From Candidatus Aceula lacicola (GTDB lineage: Bacteria > Omnitrophota > Gorgyraeia > Zapsychrales > Aceulaceae): 41,862 bases of DNA. This document shows, piece after piece, positions 1,214-8,473 of this stretch. Within the stretch, counting starts at the first letter, position 1, and each line of letters begins with the position of its first letter. The notes under the pieces were generated by a model that did not search any database, was not told the origin of the DNA, and saw nothing but the letters and a program-made list of their open reading frames with translations. The stretch spans positions 1 through 41,862 of the forward strand of contig JAVCCC010000006.1 in NCBI GenBank assembly GCA_030765785.1, written 5' to 3'. The position numbers and the translations under genes were made by a program.

Positions 1214-4200
1214 TTAAAGCAGGCTTAATTCCTTAGGCCTATCTGCTTTTTGTATCTCTTGAGCCCACTCGAAACCTTCTAAATCTTCGCCATTTAACCC
1301 TAAAATTGACAAAATATTTGTAATAGGCACAATATTAATGATAATCGGCACAAATCCTTGAATCGAATCAAAATCGATCCCTTGAAGCTCAGCTGGAATT
1401 TCAAATTCAATGCCTTCGCCTTTAGTCTCCAGTTCCCAGTTGTCTTTGACAAAATCGATACCACCGGTGTTTCCCGGGGCCTCTGTGTTTGATAAAATTT
1501 TCTTATCTGAAAGAGTAACTTCATAAATACTTACTCCATCGACAAGTCCCTTTTCGAATTCATAGTCAGATATAAGCTTGACTTCGGTATTTTCAAAATT
1601 TTCTTCCTGAAGAACCTGTATCATAACATTCTCGGCACCTGTTCTTTCAAAGGATGTCCAAAGTCCTATTGTTCCTGCAATCAATTTTCCGCCCGGCTTT
1701 ATAACGCGTAAAGCCTCTCTGAAAATTTCTTTCGCATCAGATTCTGGATACGGGTCTGATAGCGCTCCCGTTTCTATAACAACAATATCTTGGCTATGGT
1801 CAGGAATCTTCTTTGATACGGATTCTTTTCGATATGAAAATTCACCAAGAATATTTTTAACAGACCCACTCCTATCTTTACTAATATATTTTTCTGCAAT
1901 CCTTGATTTTGCCCATTGCTTTTCTAAACTATAACTGGTGTGCTGTAATCCCAGCAAAGCAGCAGCCGCACCAGAATAATCAACCTGATTTCCAACCTCT
2001 AAGATCTTTGACCCAGGCTTCACTTGACAAACTTCCTTTAGTATTGATAGCCTATCTAAAATTTCTTCAAAAAAGACATCAGAAGAGCTTAGGGCTCCAA
2101 CCCCGCTCGATGCGCTGGAGTCTTTGGCTGAATCAATACTGCTGGCAGCAGAAAAAGATTTTCCAAACTCCGTATCAAGGCGAACGACAAACTCGCTAGG
2201 ATTATTCACAAAATCCCGACCAACGGCTTCAGGGGTTAGGACTTCGGTTAAGGATTTAAATTTCTTCCAGTTGGCAAAAATCTTTTCAAGGGCTTTGGCA
2301 AATCTATAAGAATCTTTCATAAAAGCTTGGCCGACAGCTTCGGGGGTTAGAATTTCAGTTAAAAATTTAAACTTCTTCCCGTTAGCTAGAATCTCATCAA
2401 GGGCTTTAAAAAATCCATAAGAACCTTTCATAAAAGCTTGGCTGACAGTCTCAAAGCCCAGCAAAACTTGAAGCTTAATGATTATTTTCTTATAACTTCT
2501 CCATGCGAGAAAAAGCTCCTCAAGAGTACGAGCTAGCCAAAAAGAATTATTAGCAAGAGTCTGACTGACAGTCTCAGGGGTTAAAATTTCGATTAAAGAT
2601 TTAAATTTCTTCCAGTTGGCAAAAATCTTTTCAAGAATCCTAATAAATCCCTGATCATCATATGCGTGAGCCTGACTGATAGCTGAAAAAGTTAAAAAAG
2701 TTTCCAGTTCATAAAATTTAGCAAGATTATTTTTAACAACTGGTAATTTATAAAAAGAAGGACTGACGCTCGAGCTAATATCTCGCTGTGCTGGCGAAAA
2801 AATCTTCTTCTCTTTTTTTTGATTCCGCGCAACAATAAAATCTAACCATACAATGCTAGACGGAATCTGGGCAATTCTAATATCGCTAAACAATTCCTTA
2901 CTTAAGGCATCAAAAATTTCATCTCTTGAATAAGCCCGATACCCTGCTGTTTTAAGTTCAAAACTAGGACTACGAAAATACGTTGTAATCATAATGATTC
3001 CATCTGACCTAAGCACTCTTTTAGCTTCTTGTAATGCCGCCTGCATATCCATAGACCCTATGGCCTCATTAATAACAATTGAATCAAACGAATTATCCTC
3101 AAAAGGAAGGCTATATGCACTCGCCTGCTGAATATCAACATTGCGATTTTCTGCTGAAGCAACATTTTCTGAGCTAACATCAATAGCTTTGATTTTCTTA
3201 AACCCTTGATCCATTAAATCTCTTGCCAGATGCCCCTGTCCTGCACCATCAAAAAGAATATCTTTTTCCTTATAATTTTCTCCAAAAACATCTCTCAAGC
3301 TTCCCGAAACTTGCATTATCACCCTTTGACGCGTATCTTTATCTGCAGAAACAACACTAAGCATTATTCTCTCGCCAGTCCACCAGTTTTTTATCCTCGA
3401 AGGCTTTCCCTTTAATCGATCCCAATACTCCGCTTGATAATCTGCATCCGCTAAACCCGAAGCGTCATCTGATGAATCAATAGAGCTAGAGGAAATTGAA
3501 GACTTCTCTTCATCACCCCAATGGCTAATCAACTCTCTCATAAATGCTTTATATTTATACGCATCTCGAAGGTGCCCTTTAAATACTAAAGAATCCTCTT
3601 CATCTAAATCAAGACGTTGAAAACCTTCTGAAAGTGATTGAATCCGTCCCGTTGGTGTCCTTAAGTGGTGCGTCATAGGTTTATGATCCACACTCAAATA
3701 GTCAATAAAACTTAAAAGGGAACTTTTTTCTTTAAACAAGAATTCTAAGGATTCCATAACACGTCTTTTAACAAGACCAGCAAACACCTTCTCAAAACTA
3801 TAAAAATTCATACTTGAATATTCATTAGCATATTCTCGCTCTTCTTCAGATTCTATTAACCAAAGCCGAGGATCAACAAAAACTTCTTTGATATCAGTTC
3901 CCTCTGCCATCTCATTTATAACCTGATCAAATGTTTTGCCAAAAGAATTTAAAATATTATAATTTTTTTGAACAACATAATTCAAGAAAGAAAGAATCCC
4001 TTGTCTTGCCATAATAGCAGAATCAGTTATTTCATATATTCCTGTCCCCTGTTCGCTAACATATGCATGTGGAGTTGTTTGGTAGTAATCGTCAAAATGA
4101 CCTGTAATTCCAATTATCTGAGATCCTGGAAACCTAAAAACATCTTTTTTTCCTGATGCCTCAATAACATAATGAGCCCCTTCTCGAGCAAAATTTAAAA

Positions 4201-6784
4201 CAACATTTTTTGTTGCTAGATAAACTTTTAAAATATCAAAAAGATTTTTTGCCCTTAGCTGATCCTGCGTGTCTTGTCCTTTATATTTTTCTAACTCTTT
4301 AAGATTTAAAAGAGATACTCTATCCTGAGCATATATGGTTCTTCGATTAAAAATATAATCTGCTTTTCCATATGTCTCTCCAATAAATTTCATTCTTTTA
4401 GAATCAAGCATATCAACCTCTAGAAAATGAACGTCAAGATAAAAAGGTACATCATTTAGCAAAAATTTACTATCTTCTTTAGAATGAAAAATTTTTCCAA
4501 GTAGAGGTCGATCAAAATCACACACCATCATATCAACTTGCCATCTTGCACGCGCATGCGCCGGAATTACCTCTTGAAAAGCCTGCTTAAGAAGATTTAT
4601 GATTTCATTAAATTCAGTTGATTGTTCCCCAACGCCAATCTCATAAATTCTTAAATTCCAATCCCCCATTTTCTCCTTTTCTCTAAAAATATTTTTAAGA
4701 TCTTCCAAATACCCTTTAGAAAAATCAGCCGCTAAAGGATAGCTAAATTGCTGCGTCCTAAACTCATCGGCTAATGCTATTCTCATATTTTTTTCTTTCA
4801 GACCAAAATCTTCTAGCTCTTTAATCTCAGACTCTGTCATAAAATAATCAAGAGGAAAAAATTCTTGATTTCTTACGCTAAAATGATAGTTGTCATATCC
4901 CATATAATACTTCACCGAAGTCCCATGCTTGGTAACAAACACCTTTCCTGAATCGTCAAAAGAAATCTTTGTCCATTCGGCTAAACTGCTAGAACTTTTT
5001 TTGTCTCGATCCAAATCCCAGACATAAAGAAAATCATCTGAATCAAAATTTGTTGTCTCACCTTTCTTTATCTCAACACCTAAGATTTCTTTTGAACGCA
5101 CTGCTTCAAGTTCTCTAATTTCTTTAAGTTTCATTGCTCCCTTATAGGGCTCGTAATAAATCTTCCCGTCTTTTTTCATCTTCTTTTTAAGAAGGCTGTT
5201 ATCACGGTAAAATTCAAAATCATTCTCAACAGCCTTGGCAGGAGCAATCAAAGACATATAGTCAATAGAGTCATACGGCATATTCCAGAAAAATTTTCCA
5301 AAACTTGCTTTTAAAACAACCAAATTGTCTAAATTCTGTTTTTGAGCGTCTAGCTCTCTGTTTTTCCATTGATTCGCATAAAGATAATAAAACCCTTTAG
5401 AAGAATAAGAGTCAATAGTAATAACGCCAATCTTCGGATTTTTCTCAGCAATTTCTAAAGGAAGCCCTGCCTGTCCTGTTCCGACATCAATATATATTTG
5501 ATCGTAATTCTTTAAAATTAAAACAACCTTATTAATATCTTCCAAAGTATTTCCCTGCTTTATTAAATAACTAGCTAAATCATTTAATTTTTTATTTTTT
5601 ATACCAATAGGTGATGCGCTCATCACAGGCTTGAGATTAACTTCTACCCCCTGAATTCCCTGGCTCGTCACCCAGGCAGGCGAACGCGATGAAAAACTTG
5701 TTACATATTCAATATTGCTTGATGCCACCCACTCAATCCCTCCTGAAAAATACTTTCTCGGAATATTTTTATTCGTATAAGGATCATGCTCAACTTTAAT
5801 AAAATCACAAACACCCTTTTCAAAAGCTTTTAAATATTCTTCATAAATTTCTTGAGAAACTTTACTATCAACTAAATCAACACCCTCAATTTTCTTTTGA
5901 TCAGAATAAATGCGATTTACAATAAAACCTTTCAGCTTCTTCTTAAACCATGTCGCTAAAATCATAGACTGATAAATCTGACGAAGCTGAGAGAAATTCT
6001 TTCCGTAATTAACCTCTTTTTCTAACTCAGGAATAACAATCTCACGAACAATCTCAGAAGCTAATTTGTTATCAGAATCTGATTGAATCTTTGCCTCACC
6101 TTTAGAAAGGGCGACATAATCTTCTTCTAACATGACTTTTAGCGTACTCTCTAAAACAAAGGCTCTGTCTCCAACCTCATACACAACAGCCTTTTGAGGA
6201 ATAATCCAAACTTTGTTGAAAGTATCTACAGGAATCTGGGTCGTTCCATATTTGTCATAAGCGCTCTTATAGATTCGATCCCAAAAACCTTTTCCGATGT
6301 CTCCATCAGGATGAATCAAAGAAGCTGTAATTTGTTTAAGCAAATAGTCCTGAACAAGCATATCCTTACCCATCTCTGTCTTGCCAAGGGTATCTGGAAT
6401 AATACGATCTTGCTCATAAGGAGAGAGATTGACCCAAAGGTCTTTTTCCGGAATAGTAAGCGACGCCAGAAAATAACGAATTAATTTCTCAGTTTCCTGG
6501 GTGAATTCTTTATTCTTAAGCTCAGAATCAGCCCTATCAACAATAAAATCAAACCTTAAGGGATCCTTAGGAAAAACCTGAAGTCCCCGTAAAATTGCAG
6601 GCGTAAACTGTTGGCTCAAAGAAACGATCATCCCTGGTGCAGGAATCCCTAATGCACTCTGCGCCAATGCCTTAGGAATATACGAAGGCATAAGCACACT
6701 CTCCCCAAAAGCCAAAATAACAAATAAAGAGATAGCCCTCAAAAAGGATTTTCTTCCAATTCTTAAATTAATAGATATATTCAT
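1214..6784 (-). CDS. Giant exported multidomain protein with methyltransferase-like and DHp-like regions
   Basis: The protein has 1856 residues. Residues 14-31 are hydrophobic and are followed by a signal-peptidase-I-like KALA|QS site near 42. Residues 45-350 form a conserved-looking domain I cannot name. Residues 424-515 look like a Rossmann methyltransferase start (YIDVGTGQAG). Residues 708-915 resemble a CheR layout (IYEIGVGE, then EVDML, IFNRRTIYAQD, EGAHYVIE). Residues 1036-1088 carry MTHHLRTPTG, like a histidine-kinase dimerisation H-box, with no ATPase domain after it. Residues 1173-1318 are a class I methyltransferase (FDGAGQG, LPFEDNSFDSIV, AKRVLRSDGIIMI). Residues 1384-1535 hold four 37-41-residue repeats. 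Residues 1588-1757 are a second such methyltransferase (ILEVGN, ALRVIKPGGKLIAG). Ser-rich linkers lie near 1094-1105 and 1545-1568. The end (1805-1830) is hydrophobic. I recall similar proteins from Omnitrophota. Substrate is unknown. Confidence 0.85.
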   Translation of the reverse strand: MNISINLRIGRKSFLRAISLFVILAFGESVLMPSYIPKALAQSALGIPAPGMIVSLSQQFTPAILRGLQVFPKDPLRFDFIVDRADSELKNKEFTQETEKLIRYFLASLTIPEKDLWVNLSPYEQDRIIPDTLGKTEMGKDMLVQDYLLKQITASLIHPDGDIGKGFWDRIYKSAYDKYGTTQIPVDTFNKVWIIPQKAVVYEVGDRAFVLESTLKVMLEEDYVALSKGEAKIQSDSDNKLASEIVREIVIPELEKEVNYGKNFSQLRQIYQSMILATWFKKKLKGFIVNRIYSDQKKIEGVDLVDSKVSQEIYEEYLKAFEKGVCDFIKVEHDPYTNKNIPRKYFSGGIEWVASSNIEYVTSFSSRSPAWVTSQGIQGVEVNLKPVMSASPIGIKNKKLNDLASYLIKQGNTLEDINKVVLILKNYDQIYIDVGTGQAGLPLEIAEKNPKIGVITIDSYSSKGFYYLYANQWKNRELDAQKQNLDNLVVLKASFGKFFWNMPYDSIDYMSLIAPAKAVENDFEFYRDNSLLKKKMKKDGKIYYEPYKGAMKLKEIRELEAVRSKEILGVEIKKGETTNFDSDDFLYVWDLDRDKKSSSSLAEWTKISFDDSGKVFVTKHGTSVKYYMGYDNYHFSVRNQEFFPLDYFMTESEIKELEDFGLKEKNMRIALADEFRTQQFSYPLAADFSKGYLEDLKNIFREKEKMGDWNLRIYEIGVGEQSTEFNEIINLLKQAFQEVIPAHARARWQVDMMVCDFDRPLLGKIFHSKEDSKFLLNDVPFYLDVHFLEVDMLDSKRMKFIGETYGKADYIFNRRTIYAQDRVSLLNLKELEKYKGQDTQDQLRAKNLFDILKVYLATKNVVLNFAREGAHYVIEASGKKDVFRFPGSQIIGITGHFDDYYQTTPHAYVSEQGTGIYEITDSAIMARQGILSFLNYVVQKNYNILNSFGKTFDQVINEMAEGTDIKEVFVDPRLWLIESEEEREYANEYSSMNFYSFEKVFAGLVKRRVMESLEFLFKEKSSLLSFIDYLSVDHKPMTHHLRTPTGRIQSLSEGFQRLDLDEEDSLVFKGHLRDAYKYKAFMRELISHWGDEEKSSISSSSIDSSDDASGLADADYQAEYWDRLKGKPSRIKNWWTGERIMLSVVSADKDTRQRVIMQVSGSLRDVFGENYKEKDILFDGAGQGHLARDLMDQGFKKIKAIDVSSENVASAENRNVDIQQASAYSLPFEDNSFDSIVINEAIGSMDMQAALQEAKRVLRSDGIIMITTYFRSPSFELKTAGYRAYSRDEIFDALSKELFSDIRIAQIPSSIVWLDFIVARNQKKEKKIFSPAQRDISSSVSPSFYKLPVVKNNLAKFYELETFLTFSAISQAHAYDDQGFIRILEKIFANWKKFKSLIEILTPETVSQTLANNSFWLARTLEELFLAWRSYKKIIIKLQVLLGFETVSQAFMKGSYGFFKALDEILANGKKFKFLTEILTPEAVGQAFMKDSYRFAKALEKIFANWKKFKSLTEVLTPEAVGRDFVNNPSEFVVRLDTEFGKSFSAASSIDSAKDSSASSGVGALSSSDVFFEEILDRLSILKEVCQVKPGSKILEVGNQVDYSGAAAALLGLQHTSYSLEKQWAKSRIAEKYISKDRSGSVKNILGEFSYRKESVSKKIPDHSQDIVVIETGALSDPYPESDAKEIFREALRVIKPGGKLIAGTIGLWTSFERTGAENVMIQVLQEENFENTEVKLISDYEFEKGLVDGVSIYEVTLSDKKILSNTEAPGNTGGIDFVKDNWELETKGEGIEFEIPAELQGIDFDSIQGFVPIIINIVPITNILSILGLNGEDLEGFEWAQEIQKADRPKELSLL
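2180..2635 (-). repeat. Four tandem coding repeats of about 37-41 codons
   Basis: Within the giant gene, residues 1384-1535 contain four copies of a helical unit beginning LEKIFANWKKFKSL or a variant, followed by LTPEAVGQAF-type sequence. Copies start near residues 1384, 1421, 1462 and 1499. The DNA is also alike: the stretch encoding ANWKKFKSL is nearly identical near 2250-2290 and 2595-2640, while the second copy has diverged most. This points to recent duplication of some units. Confidence 0.85.
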
Positions 6785-6877: not shown

Positions 6878-6906
6878 TTGCCAAACATCATGGCTAAGGA
6901 TATACT
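6878..6906 (+). promoter_or_regulatory. Sigma70-type promoter for the SurA/PpiD-like gene
   Basis: TTGCCA (6878-6883), a 17-bp spacer and TATACT (6901-6906) form a good -35/-10 pair. Transcription would start near 6913, about 60 nt before the ATG at 6974. It lies inside the longest open frame for that gene, which rules out the upstream starts. Confidence 0.65.
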
Positions 6907-6973
6907 AATTCTTAATAAAAAATTTTATGCAATTTCTTTAATATTTTATCAAATCATTAATTTAGGAGCTTCC

Positions 6974-8473
6974 ATGTTAAAAACTTTACGAAAAAAAGGC
7001 ATCGCCAAAAAACTCTTGTGGGTTATGGCTGTTATGATCACCGTCTCTTTTGTTTTTTGGGGAATTTCTTCTTCGCTGTTAACCGAACCTGGCTCTATTT
7101 CTTGTGCTGGAAAAATTTTCGGAAAAAAAGTCTCTCTTGAAGACTTTCAGGATGCTTTGCTTCATGTTCAAAATCAAGCCATCATGCGCTATGGAGAAAA
7201 CTTTTTTAAAGTTAAAGATTTTCTTAATCTTGAATCTGAGGCATGGGATAGACTCATTCTTTTGCATGAAGGGAAAAAACGAAGAATTAAAATCTCAAAT
7301 GATGAGGTGATCAAAACCATTTCCACTCTTAGCTTCTTTAAACGAGATGAAATGTTTGATCCGGCTTTATATAATCAGATCGTGCAATATGTTTTTAAAT
7401 GTAAACCACGTAATTTTGAAGAAGGAATTAGGGGTTCTCTCATTTTTACAAAAATTTATAAACAAGAAACAAATCTCATCACCGTCTCTGACGAGGAAGC
7501 GCTTGAGGCCTATAAAAATAAGAATGAAAAAATCGACATTTCCTATGCTTCTTTTCCATTCTTAGACTATCAAAGAAATATTCAGCTAACCGATGAAGAA
7601 ATAGCCGACTACTATCAAGAACATTCAGATAATTTTAAAATTCCTCTTATGATTAACGTTGAATATTTGGCACTTGAATATCCAAAGGACGTAACGGACG
7701 AACAAAAAACAAATATTCAGAATCAAGCTGGCGATCTTGCGTTAGACCTTAATGCTGATAGCATCGAACTGCTTGATTTAGCTAAAAAATATAGCCTTAA
7801 AATTCAAGAAAGTGGATTTTTTAGCCAAGAACAGCCAAATCTTGATATCGGCTGGCCGTTAGAAATTTTTGAAGAAGCACTAAAATTGGAATCGAACACT
7901 GTCGTCGGCCCCATTGAAGCATCCAAAGGATTCTACGTCTTAAGACTTAAAGAGCAAAAAGAATCATATGTTCCGACACTAGACCAGACAAAAGACGAAG
8001 TTAAAGATGTTCTTGCTCACATTAAATCCAAAGAACTTGCAAAAAATAAAGCACAAAAAGATTTGGAAGAAATTAAGAAATCCTTTGAGAATAAATCTAA
8101 TCAAACATTTGATGCTGCGGCAAAGAAGCTTGGTCTAAAAATTGAAAAGCCAGAGCCCTTCGCCCGAGGTCAATACCTCTCTCATGTTGGCGCTGCCCCT
8201 GGATTTCACAAAGCCGCATTTGCTCTCACTGTAGGTAATCGCTTAAGCAATCCAGTCGAAACAAGCACCGCGTACTGTCTTTTACATCTAAACGCTTTTA
8301 TTCCGATTGATGAAAATGTCTTTGAGGAAAAAAAAGAAGAGTTGAAAACACGCTTACTTGAAGAAAAGAAAGAGAACACCTTTAGCAATTTCTTAATTCA
8401 ACTACGCCAAAAAGCAAATCTTGTTGATCACATTAAAAAACTTAAAGAAACACAAAGCGGAACTGCTCGATAA
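6974..8473 (+). CDS. SurA/PpiD-like membrane-anchored periplasmic folding protein
   Basis: The product is a 499-residue envelope chaperone of the SurA-N/PpiD peptidyl-prolyl isomerase class. Residues 1-13 are basic, residues 14-32 are one membrane helix (LLWVMAVMITVSFVFWGIS), and the rest should face the periplasm. The region after about 200 has the helical SurA-N layout with DEEIADYYQEH. A parvulin-like section follows, with GFFSQEQPNLDIGWPLEIFEEAL and VVGPIEASKGFYVLRL, which fit the end of a PPIC domain. I did not verify the catalytic residues, so isomerase activity is uncertain. The ATG at 6974 is chosen because AGGAG lies 5 nt upstream (6964-6968) and a promoter sits at 6878-6906. It ends 3 bp from the convergent tlpA-like gene. 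Confidence 0.8.
   Translation: MLKTLRKKGIAKKLLWVMAVMITVSFVFWGISSSLLTEPGSISCAGKIFGKKVSLEDFQDALLHVQNQAIMRYGENFFKVKDFLNLESEAWDRLILLHEGKKRRIKISNDEVIKTISTLSFFKRDEMFDPALYNQIVQYVFKCKPRNFEEGIRGSLIFTKIYKQETNLITVSDEEALEAYKNKNEKIDISYASFPFLDYQRNIQLTDEEIADYYQEHSDNFKIPLMINVEYLALEYPKDVTDEQKTNIQNQAGDLALDLNADSIELLDLAKKYSLKIQESGFFSQEQPNLDIGWPLEIFEEALKLESNTVVGPIEASKGFYVLRLKEQKESYVPTLDQTKDEVKDVLAHIKSKELAKNKAQKDLEEIKKSFENKSNQTFDAAAKKLGLKIEKPEPFARGQYLSHVGAAPGFHKAAFALTVGNRLSNPVETSTAYCLLHLNAFIPIDENVFEEKKEELKTRLLEEKKENTFSNFLIQLRQKANLVDHIKKLKETQSGTAR

Follow-up and report, generated by a model that had tools for sequence, protein, structure and literature searches.

Methyltransferase-like domains in a predicted exported protein of Candidatus Aceula lacicola appear to be the cargo of a class-wide carrier family for cytosol-type enzymes in Omnitrophota

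Within a 41,862-nucleotide stretch of the Candidatus Aceula lacicola genome (the window), a long open reading frame (ORF) encodes a protein with an N-terminal export signal followed by methyltransferase-like regions, which raises the question of what AdoMet-dependent folds might do outside the cytoplasm. An earlier note on this DNA counted up to four such folds and offered three ways out: the N-terminus merely anchors the chain and leaves the domains inside, the folds have a non-catalytic role, or AdoMet is imported. The puzzle itself is real, in that intact AdoMet motifs do occur in a chain with a cleavable-type export signal. Judged by domain layout, the four folds are one cargo set within a large carrier family that escaped the earlier note, and a class of uncultured Omnitrophota appears to export cytosol-type enzymes from the cytoplasm.

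The ORF (6784..1214, minus strand, 1856 aa) is a real gene, and stop codons occur throughout the opposite (plus) strand across the same stretch; the previously claimed span of 1214-6784 holds, with the gene on the minus strand. Its base composition (GC 0.361, GC3 0.289) is similar to that of the neighboring genes, so a foreign insertion was rejected. The downstream gene, on the same strand, is hisG. On the other side, a divergent gene for a SurA/PpiD-like periplasmic chaperone starts 93 bp away; it could be a folding helper or a chance neighbor, and is given below as context rather than as a part of the system. At 5.6 kb, the ORF falls outside the >20 kb class of Omnitrophota giant ORFs. The features are as follows (borders marked "scan" come from a border-motif scan):

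6947..8473 (also taken as 6878-8473), plus strand: SurA/PpiD-like periplasmic chaperone gene (context)
6662..6784, minus strand: signal peptide by sequence, residues 1-41
5738..6661, minus strand: N-module, residues 42-349, a conserved domain ending IPRKYFSGG
5606..5632, minus strand: border linker KPVMSASPI by sequence, residues 385-393
4985..5584, minus strand: MT1, residues 401-600, an NpmA/TrmB-like AdoMet methyltransferase-like domain
4982..4996, minus strand: Ser-rich border SSSSL, residues 597-601 (scan)
3890..4867, minus strand: "CheR-like" region, residues 640-965, a conserved domain with its fold unconfirmed
3503..3889, minus strand: region 966-1094, with distant relatives in other giant ORFs (fragment "H5")
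3455..3502, minus strand: Ser-rich border SSISSSSIDSSDDAS, residues 1095-1110 (scan)
2780..3379, minus strand: MT3, residues 1136-1335, a class I methyltransferase
2756..2785, minus strand: Ser-rich border DISSSVSPS, residues 1334-1343 (scan)
2159..2653, minus strand: four ~37-aa repeats, residues 1378-1542, period 37, 34% self identity
2081..2152, minus strand: Ser-rich border AASSIDSAKDSSASSG, residues 1545-1568 (scan)
1514..2023, minus strand: MT4, residues 1588-1757, degenerate methyltransferase-like
1277..1465, minus strand: C-module, residues 1774-1836, GGIDF...GFVPIIINIVPITNILSILGL

The export signal that the earlier note described has a hydrophobic core at residues 14-31 and a predicted signal-peptidase-I site after A39-L40-A41, before Q42, i.e., the n-h-c organization and AxA motif expected of a Sec/SPase I exported protein. 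The same layout recurs in the relatives, scored by our own n-h-c/AxA scan rather than by SignalP: a hydrophobic h-region lies ahead of the N-module in 105/105 members tested, with an AxA-like site in 104/105 and a small residue (A, G, or S) followed by Gln in 99/105. This +1 Gln is near-invariant in an N-module alignment of 34 full-length relatives. An uncleaved N-terminal anchor, with the bulk of the chain staying cytosolic, would make the cofactor problem vanish at once. We nevertheless consider it very unlikely, because the cleavable-type site and the +1 Gln are kept family-wide and, after its signal, the window protein lacks any positively charged stop-transfer segment; nor does it have another transmembrane stretch, its one further hydrophobic segment (~1810-1830) being strand-like and within the C-module. 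Some sister cargo sequences also bring their own signal peptides, which again argues against an anchor. In about 12 members, a second signal-peptide-like segment lies directly behind the N-module (e.g., in L026, L029, L074, L086, L093, and L141, that of L141 with a lipobox-like LTSSGC). Simple one-step export does not explain these members, and the simplest reading is that the cargo was captured along with its own signal.

Among the four methyltransferase folds claimed for the window protein, two are supported by profile and motif evidence, one is degenerate, and one is unconfirmed. The best defined is that at 1173-1318 (MT3), which matches Methyltransf_11 (Pfam PF08241) over residues 1180-1266 at E=1.9e-22; its motifs DGAGQGH and IDVS, which align with those of its relatives, supply the glycine motif and acidic residue of a class I AdoMet methyltransferase. 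The fold claimed at 424-515 (MT1) is remote but also supported. The MT1 fragment alone gives weak Pfam matches (NpmA, E=3e-7; GidB, E=3.5e-4), whereas in the PDB the best matches of an 11-relative profile are 16S rRNA methyltransferases (E=1.8e-4), with HemK and TrmB also hit; an hhalign comparison of the MT1 and 1173-1318 families gives a probability of 94.6%. A survey of AdoMet-binding residues, as the earlier note had proposed, shows six invariant columns in the 11-member MT1 family, including the motif-I Gly and the AdoMet-binding Asp, and MT1 accordingly combines profile, glycine, and acidic-residue evidence for class I. The MT1 relatives found are all parts of ORFs 1277-9346 aa long, and wherever the N-terminus is in view, the N-module is present; ordinary homologs lacking a signal, which the earlier note had envisaged, were not among them.

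The other two folds fared less well. The match of MT4 (1588-1757) to known structures is weak (best PDB E=0.06, to PIMT and spermidine synthase), and its motif I is degenerate (EVGNQVDYSG), the glycine motif having been lost. For the CheR-like fold claimed at 708-915, there was no methyltransferase match in Pfam or the PDB, a four-member profile included; the hhalign probability was <1% in a comparison that is insensitive because the CheR side was one sequence; PF01739 (CheR) had no match in the A. lacicola genome; and a single-sequence AlphaFold model was uninformative (pLDDT 38). The region may be a methyltransferase-like domain after all, because it keeps, by eye, a CheR-like motif order (EIGVGEQSTE ... 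VCDFD ... ADYIFNRRTIY), and G82, E89, D121, and R179 are invariant across four homologs. Its homologs (24-33% identity) lie in three giant ORFs, and no relatives of the domain were found in viral contigs. CheR (PF01739) matches in related genomes are inside ORFs of 21,496 and 25,804 aa (L208 on G003:C16, and G008:C13).

The earlier note had overlooked the N-module, the C-module, the 37-aa repeats, and the Ser-rich borders. The repeats are helical-looking, lie between MT3 and MT4, and gave no convincing family match. The two modules define the family: an N-module of ~310 aa ending in PRKYFSGG and a C-module of ~62 aa (GGID...PVIINITPV..LGL) at the extreme C-terminus enclose middles that are unrelated to each other. 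The window protein has the signal, an N-module with the YFSGG end, and a C-module near its C-terminus. Across 34 full-length relatives, the N-module has dozens of invariant positions, and its end is exactly [IVL]PRKYFSGG in 82/108 cases. Among the 101 ORFs with an N-module and a stop codon in view, the C-module lies within 41 aa of the C-terminus in 86, mostly within 15 aa; in several of those lacking a terminal C-module, a frameshift interrupts the gene and the C-module is encoded by the following ORF. Family members are mostly 0.6-5 kaa, and a small one, L096 (748 aa), consists of the N-module, one methyltransferase, and the C-module.

Both modules look undescribed, because searches of Pfam and the PDB (for both), of NCBIfam (for the N-module), and by fold (likewise for the N-module) gave nothing convincing. 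The fold search used an AlphaFold model of L096 built with 34 relatives, in which the N-module is well folded (pLDDT mostly 80-95). Foldseek found no PDB match at E<=0.001, which is weak evidence for a new fold because the low-confidence middle of L096 was included in the query. Neither module is mentioned in the passages of the Omnitrophota literature consulted, those of PMC10066038 included.

A search of the A. lacicola genome with the whole protein returned seven further long ORFs with 53-59% identity over the N-terminal ~310 residues; it also hit fragments at the edges of three contigs and, independently, sequences resembling the final ~90 residues. From these searches and contig-edge fragments, the genome probably holds about ten carrier-family members. 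Matches were present in 34/35 genomes of relatives. In a phylum-wide sample, the N-module occurs in 56/193 genomes, all of one class of Omnitrophota, and Candidatus Aceula meridiana, Zapsychrus exili, and Elulimicrobium are among the named records that carry it. Coinciding contig coordinates suggest that A. meridiana is one of the two other genomes of the genus. In 14 chosen genomes from other families of the class, N-modules are present at 30-38% identity in 1-3 copies each. One genome has up to ~75 first-look N-module candidates, 12 of which were scored. In G017, G014, and G023, whose genomes measure ~2.2-2.6 Mb, the ~60-75 first-look candidates would take up a very large part of the coding sequence.

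The middles of the sister proteins in the A. lacicola genome are mutually unrelated and include PGK with an HMGL-like domain, a reordered enolase, two GAPDH domains with an acyl-CoA dehydrogenase, PPDK parts, and others. Methyltransferases head the recognizable cargo among 76 relatives (their commonest profile matches 4/48 and 4/28), and the 3160-aa chain of L122 contains three distinct ones. Further cargo comprises PPDK, glutamate and alanine dehydrogenase, radical SAM with B12-binding domains, adenylate kinase, deaminase, starch synthase, and HD and HAD enzymes, as well as non-enzymes (ankyrin, TPR, and beta-propeller repeats). One relative, L164 (L164:1984-10956, plus strand; 2991 aa), carries GAPDH, GAPDH, PGK, and enolase between the two modules, together with a class II aldolase-like domain recognized by eye; L165-L167 have PGK or enolase by profile, and TIM-, PGM-, PGI-, and aldolase-like parts by eye. 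In L024 (L024:7315-12033, plus strand), the order of enolase is reversed, the C-terminal barrel (946-1260) preceding the N-terminal domain (1279-1373), with the usual catalytic motifs present by eye. This is the sole enolase found in the A. lacicola genome; since the two other genomes of the genus each carry an ordinary enolase, its absence here most likely reflects a gap in the assembly.

Recurrent short motifs separate the cargo domains. In the window protein, Ser-rich borders (SASPI, SSSSL, SSISSSSID, ISSSVSPS, and AASSID) divide each domain from the next, and sister proteins likewise have SASP[IV] after their N-module. In the clade of the window protein these borders, apparently enriched in Ser, stand where other lineages have D-x-A-M. 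Outside repeats, D-x-A-M tops the short patterns enriched in cargo (93 observed vs. 12.4 expected), with 104 occurrences in a cargo set that takes in four sister chains, vs. 31 in 271,113 aa of other ORFs; there are three in 41,086 aa of N-modules. In L164, D-x-A-M is at 1185 (the GAPDH/PGK gap), 1637 (the PGK/enolase gap), and 2896 (directly before the C-module). The cargo of L127 consists of tandem ~232-aa repeats, each edged by D-x-A-M (DKAMVSLEEAKDVL). The border motifs may be cleavage sites or simple hinges.

Active-site retention bears on whether the cargo could be catalytic. The exported PGK of A. lacicola, at residues ~919-1362 of L023, is 38% identical to standalone PGK and retains 14/14 active-site residues, and that of L164 retains 13/14 at 43% identity; exported GAPDH and enolase sequences have the usual motifs by eye. 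Some active-site residues are lost from the PGKs of L166 and L168, and because of these losses and the degenerate MT4, part of the cargo is probably inactive. Exported PGKs from four genomes cluster apart from standalone PGKs, a grouping that tentatively points to old, mostly functional cargo, the caution being due to the long branches. It is highly improbable, in our estimation, that the conserved N/C pair simply drags along randomly captured, drifting, functionless gene copies: the cargo is indeed divergent and shuffled, as in the enolase with reversed domains, and repeats have expanded in L127 and in the window protein, but the separate PGK group suggests cargo that was kept, catalytic residues are retained in MT1 and PGK, and the C-module remains in frame at the end of chains of 1000-3000 aa in the 86/101 cases above.

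A weightier alternative, although we rate it as rather unlikely, is structural reuse, whereby the exported folds are building blocks or ligand-binding surfaces (coat, adhesin, or decoy) and catalysis is irrelevant. GAPDH, enolase, and PGK at the cell surface are well-known moonlighting proteins that act as binders; the degenerate cargo (MT4, and the PGKs of L166 and L168) and the ankyrin, TPR, and beta-propeller repeats would fit such a role as well. Giant Omnitrophota ORFs are also usually interpreted as adhesins or coats (PMC10066038). Against this, retention of the PGK active site far exceeds overall identity, and AdoMet residues are among the few invariant columns of MT1. The non-catalytic role suggested in the earlier note is disfavored on the same evidence (the invariant Gly and Asp of MT1, and the 14/14 PGK residues), while holding some ground insofar as other members do lose residues.

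The chain of L164, in which GAPDH, GAPDH, PGK, enolase, and the aldolase-like domain are joined as if a pathway had been moved as a unit, suggests another possibility: that catalysis takes place in compartments of the bacterium itself (periplasm, vesicles, or surface layer), supplied by cofactors that are leaked, exported, or released there. The TIM-, PGM-, and PGI-like parts seen by eye in other chains and the retained catalytic residues are consistent with this, but ordinary PGK and GAPDH stay cytosolic, and to our knowledge there is no periplasmic pool of ATP, NAD, or AdoMet; we consider this reading unlikely. Normal PGK and GAPDH are kept beside the exported copies in nearly all genomes, and enolase likewise in nearly all; substitution of the cytosolic enzymes by exported ones was therefore rejected for PGK and GAPDH. 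Structural reuse and metabolism in the own periplasm are the main rivals, with anchoring and neutral drift less likely.

Import of AdoMet, the remaining option of the earlier note, would not solve the puzzle in general, because NAD-, ATP-, and PEP-dependent enzymes occur in sister proteins. The reading that we favor, tentatively and at somewhat less than even chances, is that these proteins are secreted modular carriers whose cytosol-type enzyme cargo is catalytically competent and would act in prey or host, in lysate, or in the periplasm. Its basis is what can be read from the sequences: a predicted Sec signal, an N-module, a C-module, exchangeable enzymes between them, and recurrent border motifs. 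The Sec signal would take the chain out of the cytoplasm; the N-module may then fold in the periplasm, giving all chains a shared part for docking or assembly, and the C-module may serve as a terminal sorting or capping signal. Exit could be via one of the genome-encoded secretins (four in the A. lacicola genome, and 4-7 per relative genome). The border motifs would be flexible, perhaps cleaved, joints, such that each enzyme works alone, active inside or close to a prey or host cell, or in lysate. Because AdoMet, ATP, and NAD are not free in the surroundings of the bacterium, the enzymes would act where another cell supplies these cofactors. Location of the chains outside the cell is predicted, and their entry into other cells is hypothetical. 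The boldest form of the proposal, in which the two modules export active methyltransferases and stretches of glycolysis as multi-enzyme chains, cut or flexibly joined at the border motifs, to remodel another cell's metabolites and macromolecules, is possible but doubtful.

Host-dependent lifestyles and giant proteins have been proposed for Omnitrophota (PMC10066038). Aceula relatives are described as free-living fermenters (PMC8542988), which counts against a prey or host model. A search for an ATP/ADP translocase, taken as a marker of host dependence, gave no match, but neither did the control searches, so it carries no weight in either direction. If the carrier reading is true, a widespread uncultured group routinely exports cofactor-dependent metabolic enzymes by means of two undescribed modules, and there would be a concrete molecular mechanism for the predatory or symbiotic lifestyle proposed for Omnitrophota; alternatively, enzyme folds would have been reused on a large scale as extracellular building blocks. 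The YFSGG end and the GGID tail could serve as tags by which hundreds of "uncharacterised giant proteins" are recognized and sorted, and small members such as L096 make the function of Omnitrophota giant proteins directly testable.

Compared with known systems, MT3 and MT1 carry AdoMet motifs like those of UbiE/Methyltransf_11 and NpmA/TrmB methyltransferases but, unlike these, are embedded in an exported multi-domain chain, with MT1 relatives found in giant ORFs only. Like PEP-CTERM and LPXTG proteins, the carriers have a short C-terminal module with a hydrophobic segment; the C-module has GGID...PVIINITPV, without a PEP or LPXTG motif and without a basic tail. Type IX secretion cargo has a Sec signal and a short conserved C-terminal CTD, with unrelated passengers between them; the carriers share this layout, but their C-module has no CTD match in Pfam and a large N-module is always present. 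With polymorphic toxins and CDI proteins they share a conserved trafficking part and exchangeable enzymatic parts, whereas the carrier cargo lies mid-chain between conserved ends and consists of housekeeping-type enzymes rather than toxin/immunity pairs; the window protein ends in the C-module and is followed on the same strand by hisG, not in the arrangement of a polymorphic toxin. The nearest comparison within the phylum is with the Omnitrophota giant ORFs (Seymour et al., 2023; PMC10066038), also very long and with a proposed role toward other cells; in that paper they are called poorly conserved, with few annotated domains, whereas the carriers have two strongly conserved ends and recognizable metabolic-enzyme cargo. 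A class-wide exported carrier family for cytosol-type enzymes is apparently new, while its logic of shared ends and exchangeable passengers is paralleled in known secreted families.
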